Assembly: GCF_000186245.1 (NCBI RefSeq) | Contig: NC_014935.1 | Span: 310,001 to 374,000, forward strand | Direction: 5' to 3' | Length of the DNA: 64,000 nt | From: Nitratifractor salsuginis DSM 16511 | Lineage (GTDB): Bacteria > Campylobacterota > Campylobacteria > Campylobacterales > Sulfurovaceae | Made by a program: the position numbers and the translations under genes | Notes under the pieces: model-generated | What the model was told of the DNA's origin: nothing | What the model saw: the letters and a program-made list of their open reading frames with translations, nothing else | The model's database searches: none | Part shown: one piece after another, positions 28,675 to 42,290 of the stretch | Position numbering within the stretch: position 1 is the first letter of the stretch | Layout of the letters: every line of letters begins with the position of its first letter

Positions 28675-30054
28675 ATGTGGCGCGCTATTTCGGTATTGCT
28701 GATTGGAAGCATCCCGGCACTCGCAGGGTTGAAGCATTTAACGCTCAACCAGGCTTTGCAAATTTTGGACAAAAAGAATATGGAGATCAAAGTCTCGAAA
28801 TTCGAAGAGACGATGAAAAAATACGATGAGTTGGTCGTAGAAGGAAAAAACTGGGGATCATTGACGGTAAGTCTCCAGGCCCTGCGTTCCAATGATGCCG
28901 GCAACGTCTTTGGATTCAAACTCCAGAGCCGAGAAGCGGACTTTGAAGACTTTGGCTTCTCTGATTTTCTCGCCTGTATGGGGGCAAATCCTCCCGCATA
29001 CTGTCAGGATGTCCTCCACCGTCAACCCGAAGATTTGAACTATCCAAAAGCAAGAAACCATTTCTTGACAAAACTCACTTATCAGGTTCCTTTATATACC
29101 GGTGGTAAACTGACCGAATACAAGAAGATCACCGAAAAGATGTATCAGATGAGCAAGCTCGATACGCGCAAGCTCCGAGATGAAAAGATCTTCCAGGTGA
29201 AAAAAGCCTTCTATAATATTACCCTCGTCAATCGTTATATCTACAATCTAAACAAGATTCGTCACAATATGGAAAAGTTGAAGCGGACCATTTGGGAGAT
29301 GAAAAAAGAGGGGTATACCAAAAAGACGGATGTCCTGGAGGTGGAAGCGCGCCTGGCCAAAGTGGACAGCATGCTCAACCAGGCAAGACTCAATCGGAGC
29401 CTCGCCCTTCAATTTCTCTCTTTCCTCATCGATACCGATGTGGATTCCATCCGGCAGGTAAACCTCTCCGTACATGCGCCACGAGTTAGCAAGAGTGATA
29501 TAGAGCGGATGAGCCTGGATATCCAGAAAGCGAAAATGGGTCTCGAAGTGGCACGTCATGCCATTCAGACGGAAAAAGCTAATTTCCTCCCGATGGTCGG
29601 AGCCTTTGGCGAGTACGGAAGTGCCGATGACCATTTGTGGAACGATTTCGGCAAAAAAGACTTTTATACCGTGGGCATGCAGGTCAAAATGAACCTTTTT
29701 AACGGCGGTAGCGACAAGGCCAAGCTGGAAAAAGCACGGGTGCGCCATATGAAAGTGGCAACCCAGGTGGCTTTGGCGAAGAAGGGGATAGCCCTTCAGG
29801 TCAAAAAACTGCAAACTTCCATTCGCTCGCTCGAATATGATTTGAAAAGCGAGCGCAAGCAGCTCGAGCTTGCCAAACAGGTTTATAAGACTTATGAAAC
29901 GAAATACAAAGAGGGCTTGGCTTCTATCACCGATGTGCTGATTAAACAGTCGATCGAGCTTCAGGTTTTGCTGGAGTATCTGCAGGTCGCCAACAAACAC
30001 AGTGAAAAAGTCTTCGAACTTGAAAAAATTCTCGACTGGGGAGGTCGTTCATGA
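28675..30054 (+). CDS. TolC-family outer-membrane efflux protein
   Basis: 459 residues. A short signal peptide (AISVLLIGSIPALAG) is followed by two long-helix repeats characteristic of outer-membrane efflux channels (KKAFYNITLVNRYIYNLNK; LQVKKLQTSIRSLEYDLKS) and the usual NLFNGG near residue 340. It forms the outer-membrane duct of the tripartite pump encoded by the next three genes. Overlaps the adaptor gene by 4 bases. Confidence 0.88.
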   Translation: MWRAISVLLIGSIPALAGLKHLTLNQALQILDKKNMEIKVSKFEETMKKYDELVVEGKNWGSLTVSLQALRSNDAGNVFGFKLQSREADFEDFGFSDFLACMGANPPAYCQDVLHRQPEDLNYPKARNHFLTKLTYQVPLYTGGKLTEYKKITEKMYQMSKLDTRKLRDEKIFQVKKAFYNITLVNRYIYNLNKIRHNMEKLKRTIWEMKKEGYTKKTDVLEVEARLAKVDSMLNQARLNRSLALQFLSFLIDTDVDSIRQVNLSVHAPRVSKSDIERMSLDIQKAKMGLEVARHAIQTEKANFLPMVGAFGEYGSADDHLWNDFGKKDFYTVGMQVKMNLFNGGSDKAKLEKARVRHMKVATQVALAKKGIALQVKKLQTSIRSLEYDLKSERKQLELAKQVYKTYETKYKEGLASITDVLIKQSIELQVLLEYLQVANKHSEKVFELEKILDWGGRS

Positions 30055-30854
30055 AAAAAATCATCCTTACCGTCCTGGCGATTGCCGGTACACTTTTTTC
30101 CGGTGAGCTGGAGCTCAGCGGGACCGTCATCTCCGACAACCAGAAGATGATCACGAGTCGTTTTATGGGCTTTGTCAAAGATATGAATGTCAGCGAAGGG
30201 GATCGAGTCAAGAAAGGGCAGGTGCTCTACGAGATCGATTCCAAAGAGATCGAAGCGGCGGTCAAACAGGTCGATCTGGCTATTTCCCAGGCACGGCTCG
30301 CCCTGCAGATGAATGAGAATCAGCTCAACAACGTCTTGTTGAACCTGGCACGGAACAAGCGCCTCCTTCAGAAGGATATGGTTTCCAAGTTTGAAGTGGA
30401 GCAGCTGGAATTGGCGGCGAAAAATATGAGAGATATGGTCGAGATCGCCAAGAAACAGGTGGAGCAGGCCGAAGCACAGAAAGAGTCGGTGCTTAATCAA
30501 TACAAATATTTGACGATTAAAGCACCCAACGATGGTGTAGTTGTGGCCAAAAGGCTCAACGAAGGGGATATGCAAATCCCCGGAATGCCCGCCCTGGTCA
30601 TCACCGACCTCAGGCATCTCAAAGTCCTTGTGCAGATCAGTGAAAGCAACCTCAAACATATTCGTATCGGCAAAAAGGTCAAAGTGGAGATCCCCTCCAT
30701 CGGTTTTCAAACCGAAGGGAAGATCAGCGCGATTATCCCGGCGTCGAATCCTATGACTCACAAGTTCAAGATCAAAATTACTTTCGATAAGAAGAATGCC
30801 AACGTCTTCCCCGGTATGTATGCCAAAGTCTATATCCCCGAAGAGGATAAGTGA
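30051..30854 (+). CDS. HlyD/AcrA-family periplasmic adaptor of an RND pump
   Basis: 267 residues with a signal peptide (MKKIILTVLAIAGTLFSG). A biotinyl-lipoyl-like half-domain (MNVSEGDRVKKGQVLYEID) and its partner (IKAPNDGVVVAKRLNEGDM) flank a helical hairpin, and a beta-barrel domain follows (LKVLVQISESNLKHI). It is shorter than AcrA because the C-terminal membrane-proximal domain is small. It links the inner-membrane permease to the TolC-like channel. Overlaps both neighbours by 4 bases. Confidence 0.88.
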   Translation: MKKIILTVLAIAGTLFSGELELSGTVISDNQKMITSRFMGFVKDMNVSEGDRVKKGQVLYEIDSKEIEAAVKQVDLAISQARLALQMNENQLNNVLLNLARNKRLLQKDMVSKFEVEQLELAAKNMRDMVEIAKKQVEQAEAQKESVLNQYKYLTIKAPNDGVVVAKRLNEGDMQIPGMPALVITDLRHLKVLVQISESNLKHIRIGKKVKVEIPSIGFQTEGKISAIIPASNPMTHKFKIKITFDKKNANVFPGMYAKVYIPEEDK

Positions 30855-32491
30855 CGATGATCTCCTACAAGCCCAAAGATATCGCAGGAAAGCTGGCGCT
30901 GGCATTCCTCAAGAACCCTTTGACGCTGGTTCTGGGAATTTCACTCTTGCTCTTGGGATTCATTTCGCTGGAAGTGATGCCGAGGGAGGAGGATCCCCAG
31001 ATCGCTATCTCAGGAGGAGCCGTCATTGCCCCGATGCCCGGAGCAACGCCCCGGGAGATCGAAAACGTCATTGTCAACCCGCTGGAGCGCAAACTCCGTG
31101 AAATCAAAGGGATCGACCATATTTACGGCATTGCGATGCACAATGTGGGGATCGTCAATGTCGTCTACAAGATCGGTGAGCGCAGAGAAGACGCCAACCT
31201 CAAGCTCTACGATAAAGTGATGCAGAATATGGACAAAATGCCCAAGGGAGTGATGCAGCCGCTGGTCAAACCCTTTGATATCGATATTGATATTCCCATC
31301 CTCACCTTCGCTTTCTACCCTCTTGAGGGGCAAAAAGCCGATTATGAAAAGCTCTTTCCCCTCGTTCGGCATATGCAGCAGCGGATCAATGCCGTGCACA
31401 ATGTGGCCAAGACGACCCTCAAGGGAGAGCACAAGCCCCAATTCAACGTCGAAGTGGACCTGAACAAGCTCAGTGCCTACAATCTTTCCTTGGGGCAGAT
31501 TATGAAGGCAATCCAATCCATCGCCGTTAACGTCCCCGATGTCAAAGGGCGCACCAAAAGCAAAAAGCTCCTGATCTTTGGTGTGAAGAATGCCATCGAG
31601 ACCGTCGACGATGTCAAGAATATTATTGTCGCCCAATATATGGGATCGCCTATTTACCTGCGTGATGTAGCAACGGTCGAACGGGGTATCGATTTCCAAA
31701 ATTTCAAAACCGCTTATGTCGCGTTCAAAAAAGGAAAGAGTGCCGAAGAGATTCGAAAAGCGAAACTCTCTCCCGTCAAAGAGCAGATCACCCTTACCGT
31801 CTCCAAGCTGGCGGGGACCAATGCAGTCTTTGTCGCCGACGATGTGCTCAAAGTGATGGCGCAGTATCGGGAGAGGCTTCGTAAATACGGCTTCGGCTAT
31901 ATCGTAACGCGTAATTACGGAAAGCGGGCCAACGATGCTGTCAATGAATTGGTCGATCACCTTCTGGTCACCATTTTGATCATCGCGATCATGCTCGTCT
32001 TCGCCTTGGGCTTCAAAGAAGCAATCATCGTCACGCTGACCGTACCGGCGATTTTGGCGGTGACCCTCTTCATCGCCTGGATCAGCGGGCAGACCATCAA
32101 CCGAATCACCCTCTTCGCCTTTTTGCTCTCCCTGGGACTTTTGGTAGATGCGGCGATCATCGTGATCGAAAACATCCACCGTCATCTCCATAGCCACGAC
32201 GCACCCGAACGCAGTATGGAAGAGATCCTCGTGGAAGCGACCGACGAGATCGGGGCTCCGACCAACGTGGCAACGCTGGCGATCATTATGACGATGATCC
32301 CCATGCTCTTCGTCGGGGGGATGATGGGGTCCTTTATGAAGCCCATTCCCCTCAATGTCCCTGTGGCATTGATCGCTTCATTGGTGGTGGCCTATATCTT
32401 CACCCCCTATCTCAGTCTCAAACTCTTGAAAAAGCCCAAAGCCCACCACCATCACCATCACGGGCAAGATGGGAAAGAAGGAGCGAAATGA
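30851..32491 (+). CDS. RND efflux permease, N-terminal half (split gene)
   Basis: 546 residues equal to the first half of an AcrB/CusA-type permease: TM1 (NPLTLVLGISLLLLGFISL), a porter region, then TM2-TM6 from about residue 372. TM4 reads LLVDAAIIVIENIH, with Asp and Glu seven residues apart as in heavy-metal efflux RND proteins (VDAAIVMIEN in CusA) rather than the Asp-Asp of AcrB. The protein ends after TM6 with a cytoplasmic tail holding six consecutive His. The next gene starts within its stop codon and supplies TM7-TM12. ORF lengths sum to 1124, close to a full permease. A metal substrate is an inference. Confidence 0.85.
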   Translation: MTMISYKPKDIAGKLALAFLKNPLTLVLGISLLLLGFISLEVMPREEDPQIAISGGAVIAPMPGATPREIENVIVNPLERKLREIKGIDHIYGIAMHNVGIVNVVYKIGERREDANLKLYDKVMQNMDKMPKGVMQPLVKPFDIDIDIPILTFAFYPLEGQKADYEKLFPLVRHMQQRINAVHNVAKTTLKGEHKPQFNVEVDLNKLSAYNLSLGQIMKAIQSIAVNVPDVKGRTKSKKLLIFGVKNAIETVDDVKNIIVAQYMGSPIYLRDVATVERGIDFQNFKTAYVAFKKGKSAEEIRKAKLSPVKEQITLTVSKLAGTNAVFVADDVLKVMAQYRERLRKYGFGYIVTRNYGKRANDAVNELVDHLLVTILIIAIMLVFALGFKEAIIVTLTVPAILAVTLFIAWISGQTINRITLFAFLLSLGLLVDAAIIVIENIHRHLHSHDAPERSMEEILVEATDEIGAPTNVATLAIIMTMIPMLFVGGMMGSFMKPIPLNVPVALIASLVVAYIFTPYLSLKLLKKPKAHHHHHHGQDGKEGAK

Positions 32492-34224
32492 TGAAGCGCT
32501 TCGAGAATTTTGTTTATAACATTCTGGAACACAAATCGAAAAAGACTTTGGTGGTTCTGTTGACCCTGTTGGCTTTGGCGGGCTCGGTGGCGATGCTGCC
32601 CTTCAAAATCGTCAAGGCCAAGATGCTGCCCGGAAAGAGTGACAATACCTTCTCGGTCTACATCACTACACCGACCGGCAGTTCGATTGATCAAACCTAT
32701 CAAGTGGGACAATGTGTGGTCGAGGAGCTTAAAAAAGAGCCTGAGATCACCGATATGGAGATCTATGCCGGTATGGGGATCCCCCTCGACTATGCCGGTC
32801 TGGTAAAGGGTTCGGGAATGAAGAATTCCGAGAACGTCGCCGAGATCGCCGTAAACCTCACCGACAAGCACGAGCGGGAGATCACCTCCATCGAGATGGT
32901 CCACCGCTTGCGTCCGGTGGTAAAAAAAGCCTGTAGCGGCGTCGTGCCCGGTTCCCGTATCCAATTTGTCGAGCAACCCGCCGGTCCTCCGACTCTGGCA
33001 TCCATCGTCGTCGAAGTGACCGGTCACAATATTCCCAAGATCCGTGAATTGGCCGCTGAAGTGGCCGGGATCCTCAAAAAGACTCCCACGCTGGTCGATG
33101 TGGATATTATGGAAGACGATATTTACAAAAAATATGAACTGATTCCCGACAAAGAGAAGATCGCCCGAAGCGGCCTGAGCGTGGATCAGGTCAACAAGAT
33201 CATCTACCTCGCGTTTGAAGGGATGGCGATCGCTCATAAAAACTCGGCGAACGAGCCGGATCAGATCCAAATCTTCGAAATACTGGATCCCCGCACCAAA
33301 CTCTTTAAAAGCAAGAGTCTCGACGCTTTGCGGCGCAAGCTCAACGAGCTGAACCTGATGAACAAGAAAGGGATGATGGTTCCCATCAGCGAAGTGGTGA
33401 CCATCAAAGAGGTCGATTCCAAGCCGAGCATCATGCAAAAAGATCTCCATCGGATGATCAACGTGACGGCCGAGACCGACGAAGAGTCCCAGGTCTATCC
33501 TCTGCTCGAGGCACGGGAGCGGATGATCAAGTATTTCACCAAAAAAGGCTACAAGGTGGAAAAAGAGCCCGGGATGTCCACCTATATGTTCGATCTCCAT
33601 TTGACCGATCCCAAAACGGGCGAGAAGTATCTGCTCCGCTGGGACGGGGAGATGAAAGTGACGTTGGATACTTTCCGGGATCTGGGCGGGGCCTTTATCG
33701 GGGCGCTGGTGCTGATTTTCCTCCTACTGGTGATCTATTACAAAAACTACGGTTTGCCCACCATCGTACTGATCGGAAGCTTCCTGAGTATCATCGGGGT
33801 CATCGTCGGGCACTGGGTGGCTGATCTGGTGACTAAGGACACCTTTTTCCTGACGGCCACCTCCCTCATCGGCTTTATCGCCCTGATGGGGATCAGCTCA
33901 CGGAACTCCCTCCTGCTGATTGACTTCGCCAAGTCTCTGATGGAAGCGAGGGGGATGCCCAAGCGCCGGGCCATTGCCGTCGCTTCGGCTACCCGGGCCA
34001 AGCCGATTATGCTGACCGCGATCGCCATCATCCTCGGTTCGGCGCTGCTGGCGAGTGACCCGATCTTCGGCGGGCTGGGGGTCGCGCTGATCTCCGGGAC
34101 TGTCGCGGCGGTCTTCGTTTCGCTGATCTTCGTGCCGGTGCTTCTGGACAATGCCAAATCGATGGAACTCGACGACGACAATCCTCTCCATCACGATCCA
34201 AACGACATCTCGATCACGCGCTGA
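32488..34224 (+). CDS. RND efflux permease, C-terminal half (split gene)
   Basis: 578 residues equal to the second half of an RND permease: TM7 (residues ~13-33), a large periplasmic porter/docking region, then TM8-TM12 from about residue 400 (GALVLIFLLLVIYYK, LIGFIALMGISSRNSLLLID). At the position of the AcrB TM10 Lys the sequence has Arg (SSRNS). The ATGA overlap implies translational coupling, so the two halves probably assemble into one trimeric pump. The break lies in the cytoplasmic loop, where it is structurally tolerable. Confidence 0.85.
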   Translation: MMKRFENFVYNILEHKSKKTLVVLLTLLALAGSVAMLPFKIVKAKMLPGKSDNTFSVYITTPTGSSIDQTYQVGQCVVEELKKEPEITDMEIYAGMGIPLDYAGLVKGSGMKNSENVAEIAVNLTDKHEREITSIEMVHRLRPVVKKACSGVVPGSRIQFVEQPAGPPTLASIVVEVTGHNIPKIRELAAEVAGILKKTPTLVDVDIMEDDIYKKYELIPDKEKIARSGLSVDQVNKIIYLAFEGMAIAHKNSANEPDQIQIFEILDPRTKLFKSKSLDALRRKLNELNLMNKKGMMVPISEVVTIKEVDSKPSIMQKDLHRMINVTAETDEESQVYPLLEARERMIKYFTKKGYKVEKEPGMSTYMFDLHLTDPKTGEKYLLRWDGEMKVTLDTFRDLGGAFIGALVLIFLLLVIYYKNYGLPTIVLIGSFLSIIGVIVGHWVADLVTKDTFFLTATSLIGFIALMGISSRNSLLLIDFAKSLMEARGMPKRRAIAVASATRAKPIMLTAIAIILGSALLASDPIFGGLGVALISGTVAAVFVSLIFVPVLLDNAKSMELDDDNPLHHDPNDISITR

Positions 34225-37005: not shown

Positions 37006-40000
37006 ATGATGATCAAGCTGCGTTGGTTGGTAGAGGTTATTGCATTATTTATAATAACTCTAACATATCTTACAGCATCCGACTATCAAAAAGCATTAGA
37101 GTTATGTGAACAATATTATCATTCTTCTCGCGTCTACGTGTATGGATATGCTTATCACACCAAGCCTTATGATGGAGTTTGGGCAGCATGCAGTGGAAAT
37201 TGCACTATATGTAGTCAAAATCTAAAGGATGTTAATACCACACCGTACTGGACTAATAGAGATGGGGGAAACCATAGAAATATTTCAAAAAATTACACTG
37301 AAGGTAATATACCTAAAAAGAATTACTGTTACTACTTTGAGCATTTTGCAGACCATTATTATTGCCAAAAATGTGGCAGCAGTGATTCTAACTACACCGC
37401 CCCACAAAATTGGCAACCCAGGCCAGATCTTTACTACCTTAATGGGTGCTCACAAGAAGAAACAGGGAGCATAGAACAATGTGCTGCTCATAAGGGTAAA
37501 ACTTTCTCCAGGAGGACCAAATGTTGCACAGAAACCACTTGTTTTGTCCCCCGGTGTGAGCAAAAAGACAAAAATTTCCCCCCTCTGGCACAGAACCAAC
37601 GCACCATCGATACCTGGGGTGAGGGAGAGGACCGCAGCGCACAGTGTTCGGAGAGTGGCGGGAAGGTCCAGGAGGCGCTTTTTAGCTGTAAAAAACGCTA
37701 CCGCTGTGTCGTCACAACCGATCGCTGCCCTATTGAGCGTTCGGAGCCGATCAACTCCTATGTCGATCCCCATAACCAGAGCTTTCAGGAAGATATCCCC
37801 CTTGACGGGGTGGAATATACTCTGCACTACTCCAGCGCCGATATAAACCATAGCGCCTTGGGGTCGGGTTGGGATCTGAGTATCGATGCGCGCTTGTTTG
37901 ATCAGACCCTCTATCTGGGCAACGGGGTGATCCTGGCGGTCAAGCCCGTTCAGGAAGGTACGCGGCGGGTCGTGAGCCTCGGAGGGAAAGAGTGGCACTT
38001 CAATGCCGACGGCGCCCTGGAGATGATCCGTGACGCTTATACCCAAACCCCTCTGTATCGGCTCTTCTATGATTCGGACGGCCATCTGGTGAAGATTGTC
38101 GATTCGAATCGGCAAACGACACGCATCGTCTATAATGGCGACGGAATCGCTACGGCCATCGTCGCTCCCACCGGACAGAGAACACTCCTGGATATCGACG
38201 CCCAGGGGGACCTGGCGGAGGTGCAGTATGAAGACGGTAGTAGCTACGCCTTTGTGTATGACCGACACCGGATGACCGAAGAGATCGATCCCAACGGCAA
38301 CAGCTTTGAGCATTATTATGACGAGGCGGGTCGAATTGTCAAGGTGGTCGATGCCGAGCAGGGGGAGTGGGACTTCGCAACGGAGTATGGCCCCGATGGG
38401 ATTCGGCGCACCGTCACCCGGGCCGCCGGCGATACCGTGACCTATGCCGAGGAGCTGCTCAATAACGGTTGGCTGCACTCTACTGTTACGCTACCCAGCG
38501 GGGAGCGCATCTCCTACGGCGGATCGTTGGATGAGCGTGAAGACAGGCTCGAGGATAGCTGTGGGATGCAAAGCCGTAGCCTCTTTAGGCAAAAGAGTGA
38601 CGGCTCCCTCTACAAAGACCCCTTGACCCACCGCCGAGAGCTCAAACAGCGCGCGCTAAGCACCCCGTCGGGTTTGAATTACACGGAGCGTTTCGAGACA
38701 CGATACAGCTACGATAGCCAAGGAAACCGGCTGCTCGGGCGCACCCGGACACTTGGCACCCCGCTGGGGACTTCGACACTCACGACCGATTACCGGCACC
38801 ACCGCGTCAAGATCAAATCAGCCTCGGGTAAACACAGCGAAATCGATTATGATGCTGCGATGCGCAAAGTGCGGCGCATAAAACCCTGGGGGCTCAAAGC
38901 AATCCGTTACCGTTATGACAAGGCGGGAAGAGTCATCGAAGAGAAGATCGGCAGCCGCCGTATCCGCTACCGCTACGATGATCGGGGTAACCTTGAGAGC
39001 GTCACCGACCCGCTGGGCCGAATCACCCGCTACGTTTACGACCTGCGGGGGCGGGTGACGGAGATCCACTATCCGGATGGCTCAAGCGAATCTTTTAGCT
39101 ATGACGCCAACGGCAATCTCCTCACCCGGACCGTCCCCACCTCTGCGGAGCATCACTTCGCCTACAACGGCGTCAACCGACCCGTCGGCTATACCGACCC
39201 CGAGCAACGAAGCACAACCTACCGCTACGACAAGCAGCGCCGGGTCATCGGCATTGATAAGCCCAGCGGCAAAACGATCGATTTGCGTTATGCCGGCGGC
39301 CGCCTGGAGTCTATCGAGACCCCCGAAGGGAGCACCGTCTATGCCTACGCCTGCTCCGATCACCCCCGAAGCATCGTCCGCGGCAATGAGCGGATCGATC
39401 TCCGCTATGACGGGGTCCTTCCTCTTGAAGTCAGCCTCGGCGGTACCCTGAGCCAAACGATCAAGTACCGCTACGATGGGCGCTTCCTGCCCGTGGAGAT
39501 TTCGTACGCGGGCCGAAGCACCGCGCTGGAGTATGACCCCGACGGCGCCCTGGTTCACAGCGGCGACTTCACAATAACGCGTAAGGGGAAAAAGAGGCTG
39601 CGCCTGAAGATCACAGACGGCCGCTATACCCTCAAAAAGGATTTTAACGGTTACGGGGAACTTAGCTCCAGCCGGGATGGGACCCTGAAACTCGGGCTCG
39701 TGCGTAACCAAGCCGGTCAAATCATCTTCAAATTCGAGCAGCTTCACGGCCGCTTCGGATTCTATTTCTACCGCTACGACAAGCGGGGCCGGCTCACCAA
39801 AGTGAGAAAAGGACTTCGGGTAGTCGAATCCTATACCTATGACGCCAACGGCAACAGAAAAAGCGCGACCCTCTACGGCAAACACTATGAAGGCAGCACC
39901 ACCCTTGATGACGCTCTGCAGGTCTATGGGGATAATACTTACCGATACGATGAAGACGGTTACCTCATAGAAAAGACCACGCCGCAGGGAACGACGACTT

Positions 40001-40875
40001 ATACCTACAACACTCTGGGGGCCCTTACGGAGGCAGACCTGCCCGACGGCACGCGAATTCACTACCTTCTTGACCCCCTCAACCGCCGGATCGCCAAAGA
40101 GGTCAACGGTACAATTACTCAAAAATATCTTTGGGCAGATCTTACTACACTTCTTGCTGTTTATGATAAAGATGACAACTTGGTACAACGCTTCGAATAC
40201 GCCGGAGAGCGTATGCCCGTGGCGATGAGAGACGCCAACGGCAAGAAGTATTATCTGCACTACGACCAGGTCGGCAGTCTCAGAGCCGTCACGGACAGCA
40301 GACACCGACTCGTCAAAGCGATCCGCTACGACAGCTATGGTAATATCCTAAGAGACAGTAACCCGGGATTTAAAGTCCCCTTCGGCTTCGCCGGAGGGCT
40401 TTACGACTCTGATACGGAGTTAACACACTTCGGCTTCAGAGAGTACGATGCCTTCACCGGCAAGTGGACAGCAAAAGACCCGCTCCTCTTCGGAGGAGGG
40501 GACAGCAACCTCTACGGGTATGTGCTGGGGGATCCGGTGGATTTGGTGGATCCAAGTGGAAAAGTTGCTGTTGTTGATGATATTGTAATTGTAGGTATTG
40601 CATTTTTAGGAGCGTGGGCAATATATGAAGCTATCCCACATGCACGAAATCTCGTGAATCAGGCAAATAGTTATTTACCTGATTGGCTCAATAAACAATT
40701 AGATGATCTCATTAACAAGAACACACAAACCAAGGAAAAAGAAGCAAAAAAGAATAGTAACAAACGAAATGATTGTATCGAGCAATGTCTTTATCTGTTG
40801 GAAAGATATGGTGCAGATGAATTTAATAAATGTGTTAGTGAATGTGAAGAGGAAAAAGCATGCAGAGAGGATTGA
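37006..40875 (+). CDS. RHS/YD-repeat polymorphic toxin, full length
   Basis: 1289 residues. A hydrophobic signal peptide (ALFIITLTYLTA) is followed by a Cys-rich region to about residue 235 and a DUF6531-like entry (EPINSYVDPHNQSFQED). Many YD repeats (YRYDKAGRVIEEKIGS, YTYDANGNRKS) form the RHS cocoon. The core ends with GFREYDAFTGKW, NLYGYVLGDP and DLVDPSGK near residue 1180. The last ~105 residues are the variable tip (VVDDIVIVGIAFLG, then Lys-rich and Cys-containing), unrecognised. AAGGAGG at 36997-37003 favours ATG 37009 over 37006. No VgrG, PAAR or TcB/TcA gene is near, so Sec export is the only visible route. The gene after it overlaps by 16 bases and is a candidate immunity gene. Confidence 0.9.
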   Translation: MMIKLRWLVEVIALFIITLTYLTASDYQKALELCEQYYHSSRVYVYGYAYHTKPYDGVWAACSGNCTICSQNLKDVNTTPYWTNRDGGNHRNISKNYTEGNIPKKNYCYYFEHFADHYYCQKCGSSDSNYTAPQNWQPRPDLYYLNGCSQEETGSIEQCAAHKGKTFSRRTKCCTETTCFVPRCEQKDKNFPPLAQNQRTIDTWGEGEDRSAQCSESGGKVQEALFSCKKRYRCVVTTDRCPIERSEPINSYVDPHNQSFQEDIPLDGVEYTLHYSSADINHSALGSGWDLSIDARLFDQTLYLGNGVILAVKPVQEGTRRVVSLGGKEWHFNADGALEMIRDAYTQTPLYRLFYDSDGHLVKIVDSNRQTTRIVYNGDGIATAIVAPTGQRTLLDIDAQGDLAEVQYEDGSSYAFVYDRHRMTEEIDPNGNSFEHYYDEAGRIVKVVDAEQGEWDFATEYGPDGIRRTVTRAAGDTVTYAEELLNNGWLHSTVTLPSGERISYGGSLDEREDRLEDSCGMQSRSLFRQKSDGSLYKDPLTHRRELKQRALSTPSGLNYTERFETRYSYDSQGNRLLGRTRTLGTPLGTSTLTTDYRHHRVKIKSASGKHSEIDYDAAMRKVRRIKPWGLKAIRYRYDKAGRVIEEKIGSRRIRYRYDDRGNLESVTDPLGRITRYVYDLRGRVTEIHYPDGSSESFSYDANGNLLTRTVPTSAEHHFAYNGVNRPVGYTDPEQRSTTYRYDKQRRVIGIDKPSGKTIDLRYAGGRLESIETPEGSTVYAYACSDHPRSIVRGNERIDLRYDGVLPLEVSLGGTLSQTIKYRYDGRFLPVEISYAGRSTALEYDPDGALVHSGDFTITRKGKKRLRLKITDGRYTLKKDFNGYGELSSSRDGTLKLGLVRNQAGQIIFKFEQLHGRFGFYFYRYDKRGRLTKVRKGLRVVESYTYDANGNRKSATLYGKHYEGSTTLDDALQVYGDNTYRYDEDGYLIEKTTPQGTTTYTYNTLGALTEADLPDGTRIHYLLDPLNRRIAKEVNGTITQKYLWADLTTLLAVYDKDDNLVQRFEYAGERMPVAMRDANGKKYYLHYDQVGSLRAVTDSRHRLVKAIRYDSYGNILRDSNPGFKVPFGFAGGLYDSDTELTHFGFREYDAFTGKWTAKDPLLFGGGDSNLYGYVLGDPVDLVDPSGKVAVVDDIVIVGIAFLGAWAIYEAIPHARNLVNQANSYLPDWLNKQLDDLINKNTQTKEKEAKKNSNKRNDCIEQCLYLLERYGADEFNKCVSECEEEKACRED

Positions 40876-41390
40876 CAAGTAGACAGAAGCAGAAAATTAT
40901 TGCTTTTTCTGCGTATTCAAGCTATCAAAAGTTAATGTTTCTTGCTTCGGTATTTTCCTTTGATAAGGGATCTGATGTTGATGACTTGGTAGCAAAATTA
41001 AAAAAAGATATATTAGAGATATCCGCCAGAATAAGTTACGAAATACTTTATCAAATATGGAATGAGTCGCCTGAAATAGAGAATGACACAAAAATGATAT
41101 TCGAAAATCTAAAAATTTCAAAAAATGGGAATGCCAGAAAGATAAAATACATTGATTCAATTGAAGAAGCTAGAATAATTTCATATTTAATCACAAGTGC
41201 CTACAATGACCTTGGGGGAAGACTAGTGCCAGACATAGTCAAAGCTGACGAAAGTAGAATTTCTAAAGCTGTAATCGAGCAGTCAAAAAATATAATTATA
41301 AATCTCTTAACACCATTGTTCAAAAAATTCCCGGAACTAAAAATGGAAAGTGATAAGATATATAATTTATTTGGCGTTTTCCCTTTATAA
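40860..41390 (+). CDS. Candidate immunity protein for the full-length RHS tip
   Basis: 176 residues, AT-rich, no recognised domain, mostly helical and soluble (KKDILEISARISYEILYQIW). It starts inside the end of the RHS gene, the classic toxin-immunity overlap. Role is inferred from position only. Confidence 0.6.
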   Translation: MQRGLTSRQKQKIIAFSAYSSYQKLMFLASVFSFDKGSDVDDLVAKLKKDILEISARISYEILYQIWNESPEIENDTKMIFENLKISKNGNARKIKYIDSIEEARIISYLITSAYNDLGGRLVPDIVKADESRISKAVIEQSKNIIINLLTPLFKKFPELKMESDKIYNLFGVFPL

Positions 41391-41450
41391 GATGGGGCTA
41401 CGAAGTGATCGTAATCGTAGGCATCTTCAAAAAATATCTAAAGACCTTAA

Positions 41451-42290
41451 GACCTCGTAACCCTCCTGGCCGTCTATGATGCAGAGGACCGTCTGCTCCA
41501 ACGCTTCGAATACGCCGGAGAGCGTATGCCCGTGGCGATGAGAGACGCCAACGGCAAGAAGTATTACCTGCACTACGACCAGGTCGGCAGCCTCAGAGCC
41601 GTCACGGACAGAAGACACCGACTCGTCAAAGCGATCCGCTACGACAGCTATGGTAATATCCTAAGAGACAGTAACCCAAGATTCAAAGTCCCCTTCGGCT
41701 TCGCCGGAGGTCTTTACGACTCTGATACCAAATTAACACACTTTGGATTTAGAGAGTATGATGCCTTCACAGGCAAATGGACTGCCAAAGATCCGCTCCT
41801 CTTCGGAGGAGGGGACAGCAACCTCTATGGGTATGTGCTGGGGGATCCGGTTAATTTGGTGGATCCGTGGGGTTTGACCGATGTCAACTCCGGGGGAGGA
41901 GGAGGTGCCGGATTTATGGCCGGCTTTGGTGGAGCGAACGTCCATTTCCATATCAACTGTAGTTCTAATGGATGCTTTAAAGTAACAACCATTTGCGGGA
42001 GAGTCGGCCTGGGTATTGGATTCAATGTTGGTCTAGAAGGAAATGCGGGTATCGATCCTAACGGCACATATGGCAAAGATTGTGACGGAGAGCCGAAAAA
42101 GTGTACATACGATTGGAGCTTGGGAATTGGAGGGGATTTGCACTTTGGAGCTTTTGGCACAGGAGGTAGTATTGGATACGGCTCTTCGGGCGGAAGTGCA
42201 ATATTGGATTTGGGAATTCCTGAAACCGGTTATGGTTTGGATATTGGCGGTGGTATTGAAGCTTGTCTGATTATTACATGTCCATTGTAA
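41451..42290 (+). CDS. RHS cassette 1: core 3' end plus Gly-rich tip
   Basis: The frame is open from 41451 after TAA; the first ATG is 41526 (254 residues from there). Residues up to DPVNLVDPWGL copy the RHS core of 37006; the tip is new. It is Gly/Ser-rich with beta character (GAGFMAGFGGANVHFHINC, YGSSGGSAILDLGI) and Cys pairs, ending CLIITCPL. This might be a membrane-acting domain. No signal peptide or promoter is seen, so it is probably a silent donor cassette or remnant. Its first two thirds are nearly identical to cassette 5 (46168). Confidence 0.7.
   Translation, partial: DLVTLLAVYDAEDRLLQRFEYAGERMPVAMRDANGKKYYLHYDQVGSLRAVTDRRHRLVKAIRYDSYGNILRDSNPRFKVPFGFAGGLYDSDTKLTHFGFREYDAFTGKWTAKDPLLFGGGDSNLYGYVLGDPVNLVDPWGLTDVNSGGGGGAGFMAGFGGANVHFHINCSSNGCFKVTTICGRVGLGIGFNVGLEGNAGIDPNGTYGKDCDGEPKKCTYDWSLGIGGDLHFGAFGTGGSIGYGSSGGSAILDLGIPETGYGLDIGGGIEACLIITCPL

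Follow-up and report, generated by a model that had tools for sequence, protein, structure and literature searches.

Gene Organization

The stretch of DNA analyzed here (the window) comprises 64,000 bases of the Nitratifractor salsuginis DSM 16511 genome (NC_014935.1, positions 310,001 to 374,000) and encodes a tripartite efflux operon whose resistance/nodulation/cell division (RND) permease is carried as two genes. Four overlapping forward-strand genes specify a TolC-family outer-membrane channel (28675..30054; 459 amino acids; Pfam OEP, E 3.2e-35), a periplasmic adaptor (30051..30854; 267 amino acids; Pfam HlyD_D23, E 3.8e-31, with NCBIfam RND_mfp above its cut-off), permease half A (30851..32491; 546 amino acids), and permease half B (32488..34224; 578 amino acids). 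Half A starts with a GTG at 30851, an ATG at 30857 being a possible alternative; it carries transmembrane helices (TM) 1–6 and its periplasmic domain, and half B carries a linking helix, TM7–12, and a periplasmic domain of its own. The two halves cover the Pfam ACR_tran profile in succession (11–499 in half A, from 514 in half B), and their scores of 252 and 177 bits against a cut-off of 28 assign both to the RND superfamily.

The start codon of half B and the stop codon of half A share an ATGA (32488..32491), preceded by a Shine-Dalgarno-like AAGGAG that lies inside half A (32478..32483). All three junctions of the operon are 4-base overlaps, so the coupling of A to B is of the same kind as that of the other genes. 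Half A also contains the TM4 motif VDAAIIVIEN (32144..32173) and six histidine codons in its tail after TM6 (32444..32461). A sequence-only reading of this DNA had reported the divided permease with these lengths and overlap, the TM4 motif, and the histidines, and all of these are present as it described them.

In the AlphaFold model of half A the last helix ends at residue 525, and residues 532–546 have a predicted local distance difference test (pLDDT) score under 50; the model of half B opens with helices 2–14 and 16–35. The models thus place the cut between TM6 and the linking helix, bearing out the earlier assignment of the split to the TM6–TM7 loop. In AcrB an amphipathic helix links TM6 to TM7 and so connects the two repeats, which switch between engaged and disengaged states (PMC8277102); as modeled, the cut falls just ahead of the position of that helix.

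Distribution and Age of the Split

Half A was matched in 275 of 398 genomes of the Campylobacterales (E ≤ 1e-60) and half B in 275 of 396. From the matches listed, 120 loci were picked for diversity and parsed together with the window. In this survey of homologues, which the sequence-only reading had proposed as a check, the permease is split in 99 of 121 loci, fused in 21, and cut by a contig end in one; because the loci were picked for diversity, the ratio of 99 to 21 is not a frequency. Half A runs on into half B in 120 of the 121, whether as a separate gene (99) or a fused one (21), and the two are neighbors in every split locus (99/99). One locus with half A cut (L161) was left out of the junction counts and one with half B cut (L083) out of the trees; two others with half B cut (L106 and L114) were retained, giving 98 rows with letters at the relay columns of half B. 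A second set held 80 named loci (Campylobacteraceae, Sulfurovum, Nitratifractor, Hydrogenimonas, Nitratiruptor, and similar), many from the same assemblies as the main survey; six were set aside, and in all 74 with both halves complete, A and B overlap by no more than 14 bases or are separated by no more than 12.

Both halves are conserved, with mean column identities of 74% (half A) and 77% (half B), and the order serA-channel-adaptor-A-B-efp is seen repeatedly in several families. In two plasmid records (Sulfurovum mangrovi and Sulfuricurvum kujiense), each half is annotated as an 'efflux RND transporter permease subunit' gene of its own. Outside the phylum, all six plasmid records examined, from 129 matching records of which 30 were listed, are fused; split forms may occur elsewhere. 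The survey shows that the split is old, and that it is neither a sequencing error nor decay.

The split rows also group together in trees. All 35 stand on one side of one branch in a quick 61-row IQ-TREE analysis (Shimodaira–Hasegawa-like approximate likelihood ratio test [SH-aLRT] support 100; one change), as do all nine in a 34-row tree, and a FastTree of 133 rows keeps 100 of 100 together with local support of 0.75. Fused Campylobacterales permeases and the fused plasmid relatives (Pseudomonadota, Bacteroidota, and Cyanobacteriota) fall outside this clade. The split appears to have had a single origin and to have persisted thereafter; the group that carries it is large and made up mainly of marine and sulfur-related bacteria.

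Three fused loci (L139, L140, and L147) have neighbors (serA, efp, or DJ-1) that many split loci also have. One of them, L140, has the same genus code (g64) as the split locus L156, and both permeases lie beside efp and DJ-1; this pair suggests replacement in place. Five split loci (L084, L085, L086, L160, and L164) have aspartate at AcrB position 408, lie mostly outside the serA...efp neighborhood, and cluster where sampled; they are probably a paralogue group.

Relationship to Other RND Permeases

The 61-row tree could not place the permease branch because it held a single heavy-metal efflux (HME) reference, used as root. The 34-row tree, a quick tree whose root is not fixed and which has some long rows, adds three HME and four hydrophobe/amphiphile efflux (HAE) references from plasmids. 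In it the permease branch (21 rows, SH-aLRT 100) is apart from the HME clade (four rows, SH-aLRT 100) and separate also from nine HAE references, so that neither HAE-1 nor HME permeases group with it; identity to the two sets of references is alike, at 18–21%. By this test the permease belongs to a third, separate branch. The sequence-only reading had called for such a phylogeny, having taken the TM4 motif as CusA-like; the tree does not uphold the CusA-type placement, and it does not put the permease within the drug-efflux RND proteins either.

Residues of the proton relay were compared by alignment (AcrB or CusA numbering). TM4 of half A reads LVDAAIIVIEN, in which D433 corresponds to AcrB D407 and A434 to D408. 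D407 is kept in all 100 split rows; position 408 is alanine in 87, aspartate in 12, and serine in one, and in the 27 fused rows of the branch it is serine (15), aspartate (nine), alanine (two), or glycine (one). As aligned, "VDAA" is the loss of the second TM4 aspartate, a loss that the fused relatives have undergone as well, and it lends no support to a CusA-type affiliation. Position 940 is arginine, and R971 and T978 are kept, in all 98 split rows with letters there. The relay residues are thus divided between the chains, D407 in half A and the arginine at 940, R971, and T978 in half B. The fused relatives, which belong to the same branch, share arginine at 940 (27/27) and a variable residue at 408; they differ in having one gene, of about 1060–1240 amino acids by annotation or open frame, annotated as 'efflux RND transporter permease subunit.'

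Several traits of HAE-1 permeases are lacking in the window: the pair of adjacent TM4 aspartates, the TM10 lysine (K940), and the single 12-TM polypeptide. K940 is not a strict HAE-1 criterion, since the solved multidrug permease MexK has arginine there too (compared by eye). R971 and T978 are as in HAE-1, yet CusA has both; as CusA shares the relay aspartate, arginine, and threonine, only E939/K984, K940, and D408 discriminate. The CusA residues E939 and K984 are arginine and isoleucine in the window, and M573, M623, and M672 are tyrosine, valine, and glycine, in a periplasmic region whose alignment to CusA is weak. This methionine triad is of the Cu/Ag type, and other HME pumps have other ligands.

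No NCBIfam permease model reaches its whole-protein cut-off with either half. The multidrug permease models score best (225 bits for A and 134 for B, cut-off 1250), above the CusA/CzcA model (137 and 68 bits), and the top Foldseek matches of both halves are AcrB, AcrD, AdeJ, OqxB, and their kin, with CusA lower, for half A.

Junction and Translation

The overlap of A and B is 4 bases in 44 of the 99 split loci and 1 base in 26, and the spacing ranges from a 17-base overlap to a 12-base gap. Half B lies in the −1 frame relative to half A in 77 loci, in the +1 frame in 11, and in frame behind the stop codon in 11. A Shine-Dalgarno-like core precedes half B in 81 of the 99 loci, compared with 151 of 1980 internal ATGs picked at random. 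Varied frames and spacing, together with these sites, fit termination and re-start at B, and the two halves look translationally coupled. At three loci (L104, L058, and L059) the ATG of half B follows the stop codon of half A directly and in the same frame, so that a lone stop codon divides the halves.

The Histidine Tail

The six-histidine stretch is one of three runs of six CAY codons, in any frame, in the 2,101,285-base genome, and by analogy with the topology of AcrB it would lie on the cytoplasmic side. Among the 99 split loci, half A has at least three histidines after TM6 in 49, a run of at least three in 37, and a run of at least six in 13; histidine makes up 14.9% of tail residues compared with 1.8% of the remainder of half A. 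A box of KKP, up to three residues, HHHxHH, and then F/W/G is found in 19 of 99 loci, including all five in each of two families (f4 and f18), and three loci (L095, L096, and L104) have a histidine run at the start of half B. The histidine cluster noticed earlier at the junction therefore recurs in several families. Codon slippage is not favored as its source: all 18 tail runs of at least four histidines mix CAT and CAC. Histidines in the loop window number three in AcrB and two to four in the 21 fused Campylobacterales rows, so enrichment before the split cannot be claimed.

None of the 18 loci of family f8 has three histidines in the tail of half A, and three loci from the same genus as the window (L051, L054, and L056) have just one or two, which argues against a necessary role. 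The tail may be an exposed appendage that the basic pump does not require; perhaps it binds metal. The histidine box, after TM6 or at the start of half B in a few lineages, might bind cytoplasmic metal or sense pH and so set the engagement of the repeats, in a deep RND branch with a single TM4 carboxylate and hence probably one proton per step; we consider this proposal improbable. In favor of a metal-sensing junction, the second-best NCBIfam match of the adaptor is CzcB/NccB, although its 105 bits are far under the cut-off of 319.

Substrate and Neighboring Genes

An organic compound is weakly favored over a metal ion as the substrate. The operon's neighbors are mostly housekeeping genes and say little on this point; the neighborhood survey used longest open frames, and antisense frames sometimes displace the adaptor or efp, in the row of the window among others. 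Three upstream regulators, picked by eye among 13 proteins, are TetR-type, and the neighbors of the Sulfuricurvum pair include TetR and MarR; both are weak hints. Two fused relatives, on plasmids of Paracoccus pantotrophus (L253) and Pseudanabaena galeata (L251), are near genes for ArsR, cytochrome c, and sulfur-transferase or rhodanese. A conserved ISIT terminus of half B is present in 24 of 33 loci of family f1 and in none of 66 elsewhere.

In Nitratiruptor SB155-2 (G084) no HlyD_D23 match other than the operon adaptor (672443–673168) falls in the region from about 104 to 910 kb, and by tag order this adaptor is probably NIS_RS03660. In PMC10092412, NIS_RS03660 is the single named CzcB candidate and is reported to be without cadmium induction; a cadmium- and copper-induced cluster described there includes an RND gene (NIS_RS04925) that is, by tag order, a different locus.

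Elsewhere in the window, a 1289-amino-acid RHS-repeat-like protein is followed by a short cassette (41526–42290) that nearly duplicates part of its C-terminal region (37006–42290 in all), and G+C falls to 0.37–0.42 at 42–48 kb.

A Permease Probably Assembled from Two Chains

The operon very probably encodes a tripartite efflux pump with an RND permease assembled from two chains. Gene anatomy, conservation, the single split clade, and the divided relay are the observations behind this reading; from them we infer an A3B3 assembly, proton drive, and re-start at half B. Half A would supply TM1–6 and half B the linking helix and TM7–12, with three A/B pairs building the trimer. Ribosomes finishing half A would re-start at the Shine-Dalgarno site of half B inside A, a route preferred to frameshifting, so that the halves would be made together. 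The cut would part the two transmembrane repeats, which in AcrB shift relative to one another on proton binding, and export would be proton-driven.

Some results weigh against this reading. Substitution of D408 or K940 abolishes transport by AcrB (PMC8277102), so that with alanine and arginine at these positions coupling here must differ from that of AcrB. The AlphaFold models are moderate (pLDDT 73–74; predicted template modeling score 0.54–0.57), and the Foldseek matches have large root-mean-square deviations (about 7–12 Å) and TM-scores of 0.37–0.66 by query length. The resemblance of the adaptor to CzcB-type models, below cut-off, does not suit an organic substrate, and in the 11 loci with half B in frame behind the stop of half A, read-through could give a fused protein.

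A first alternative is an HME pump of the CusA type in two pieces, with the histidine tail serving to sense or supply metal on the cytoplasmic side. The lone TM4 aspartate is CusA-like, histidine-rich tails occur in 49 of 99 loci, the adaptor resembles CzcB/NccB (though well under the cut-off) and the Pfam CusB/HlyD domain, and CusA is among the lower-ranked Foldseek matches of half A. We nevertheless regard this as unlikely: the branch is separate from all four HME references, none of the CusA residues compared (the methionine triad, E939, K984) is present, CusA/CzcA scores are below multidrug scores for both halves, and the probable operon adaptor of Nitratiruptor, an assignment made by tag order, is reported in PMC10092412 not to be cadmium-induced. 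Alternatively, frameshifting or stop-codon read-through might join the halves, one chain being the working protein. The in-frame loci would allow it, most directly the three with a lone stop codon, but the frame and spacing of half B vary among loci, most B starts have their own Shine-Dalgarno-like site, and no common slippery sequence was noticed in the listed junctions, for which no dedicated search was made; this seems very unlikely. Less likely still, A and B could act separately, as homo-oligomers or with other partners; six-helix halves are pseudo-repeats for which self-pairing is possible in principle, but A adjoins B in every split locus and the relay is shared between them. Sequencing error or a decaying pseudogene, which a single genome with one stop between two frames would resemble, is already refuted by the survey: 99 of 121 parsed loci are split, as are all 74 named loci with both halves complete, and both halves are conserved.

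Comparison with Known Systems

The proposed pump shares with HAE-1 systems (AcrB, MdtB, MdtC, and MexK) its best NCBIfam models and top PDB matches (below whole-protein cut-offs), a tripartite operon, D407, R971, and T978; it differs in its two chains, alanine for D408, arginine for K940, and its separate branch. CusA and CzcA are alike in the single TM4 aspartate, but the split permease has neither the methionine triad of CusA nor its E939 and K984, and it stands on a separate branch. MdtB-MdtC is likewise a pump operon with a pair of permease genes; both are full-length, not halves.

In Escherichia coli, secD and secF are separate genes. SecD/SecF is the nearest precedent for the split: it belongs to the RND superfamily and is described in PMC8277102 as a heterodimeric arrangement of 2 x 6 TM. 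It differs in serving protein translocation, without channel or adaptor; the NCBIfam SecDF and SecF models match half A weakly and half B not at all. No description of a split efflux RND permease was found in the literature searched, which left most subscription papers outside it; within that scope an RND permease in two halves is seemingly undescribed, although the type of pump is familiar.

Division into two genes, both annotated with the same product name, is compatible with the persistence of a 12-TM permease. The clade is a natural experiment in which each repeat is a chain of its own and could be expressed, mutated, or mixed without the other being altered. Most sampled members lack D408 and all have D407, so they may help to show how pumps of this kind use protons.

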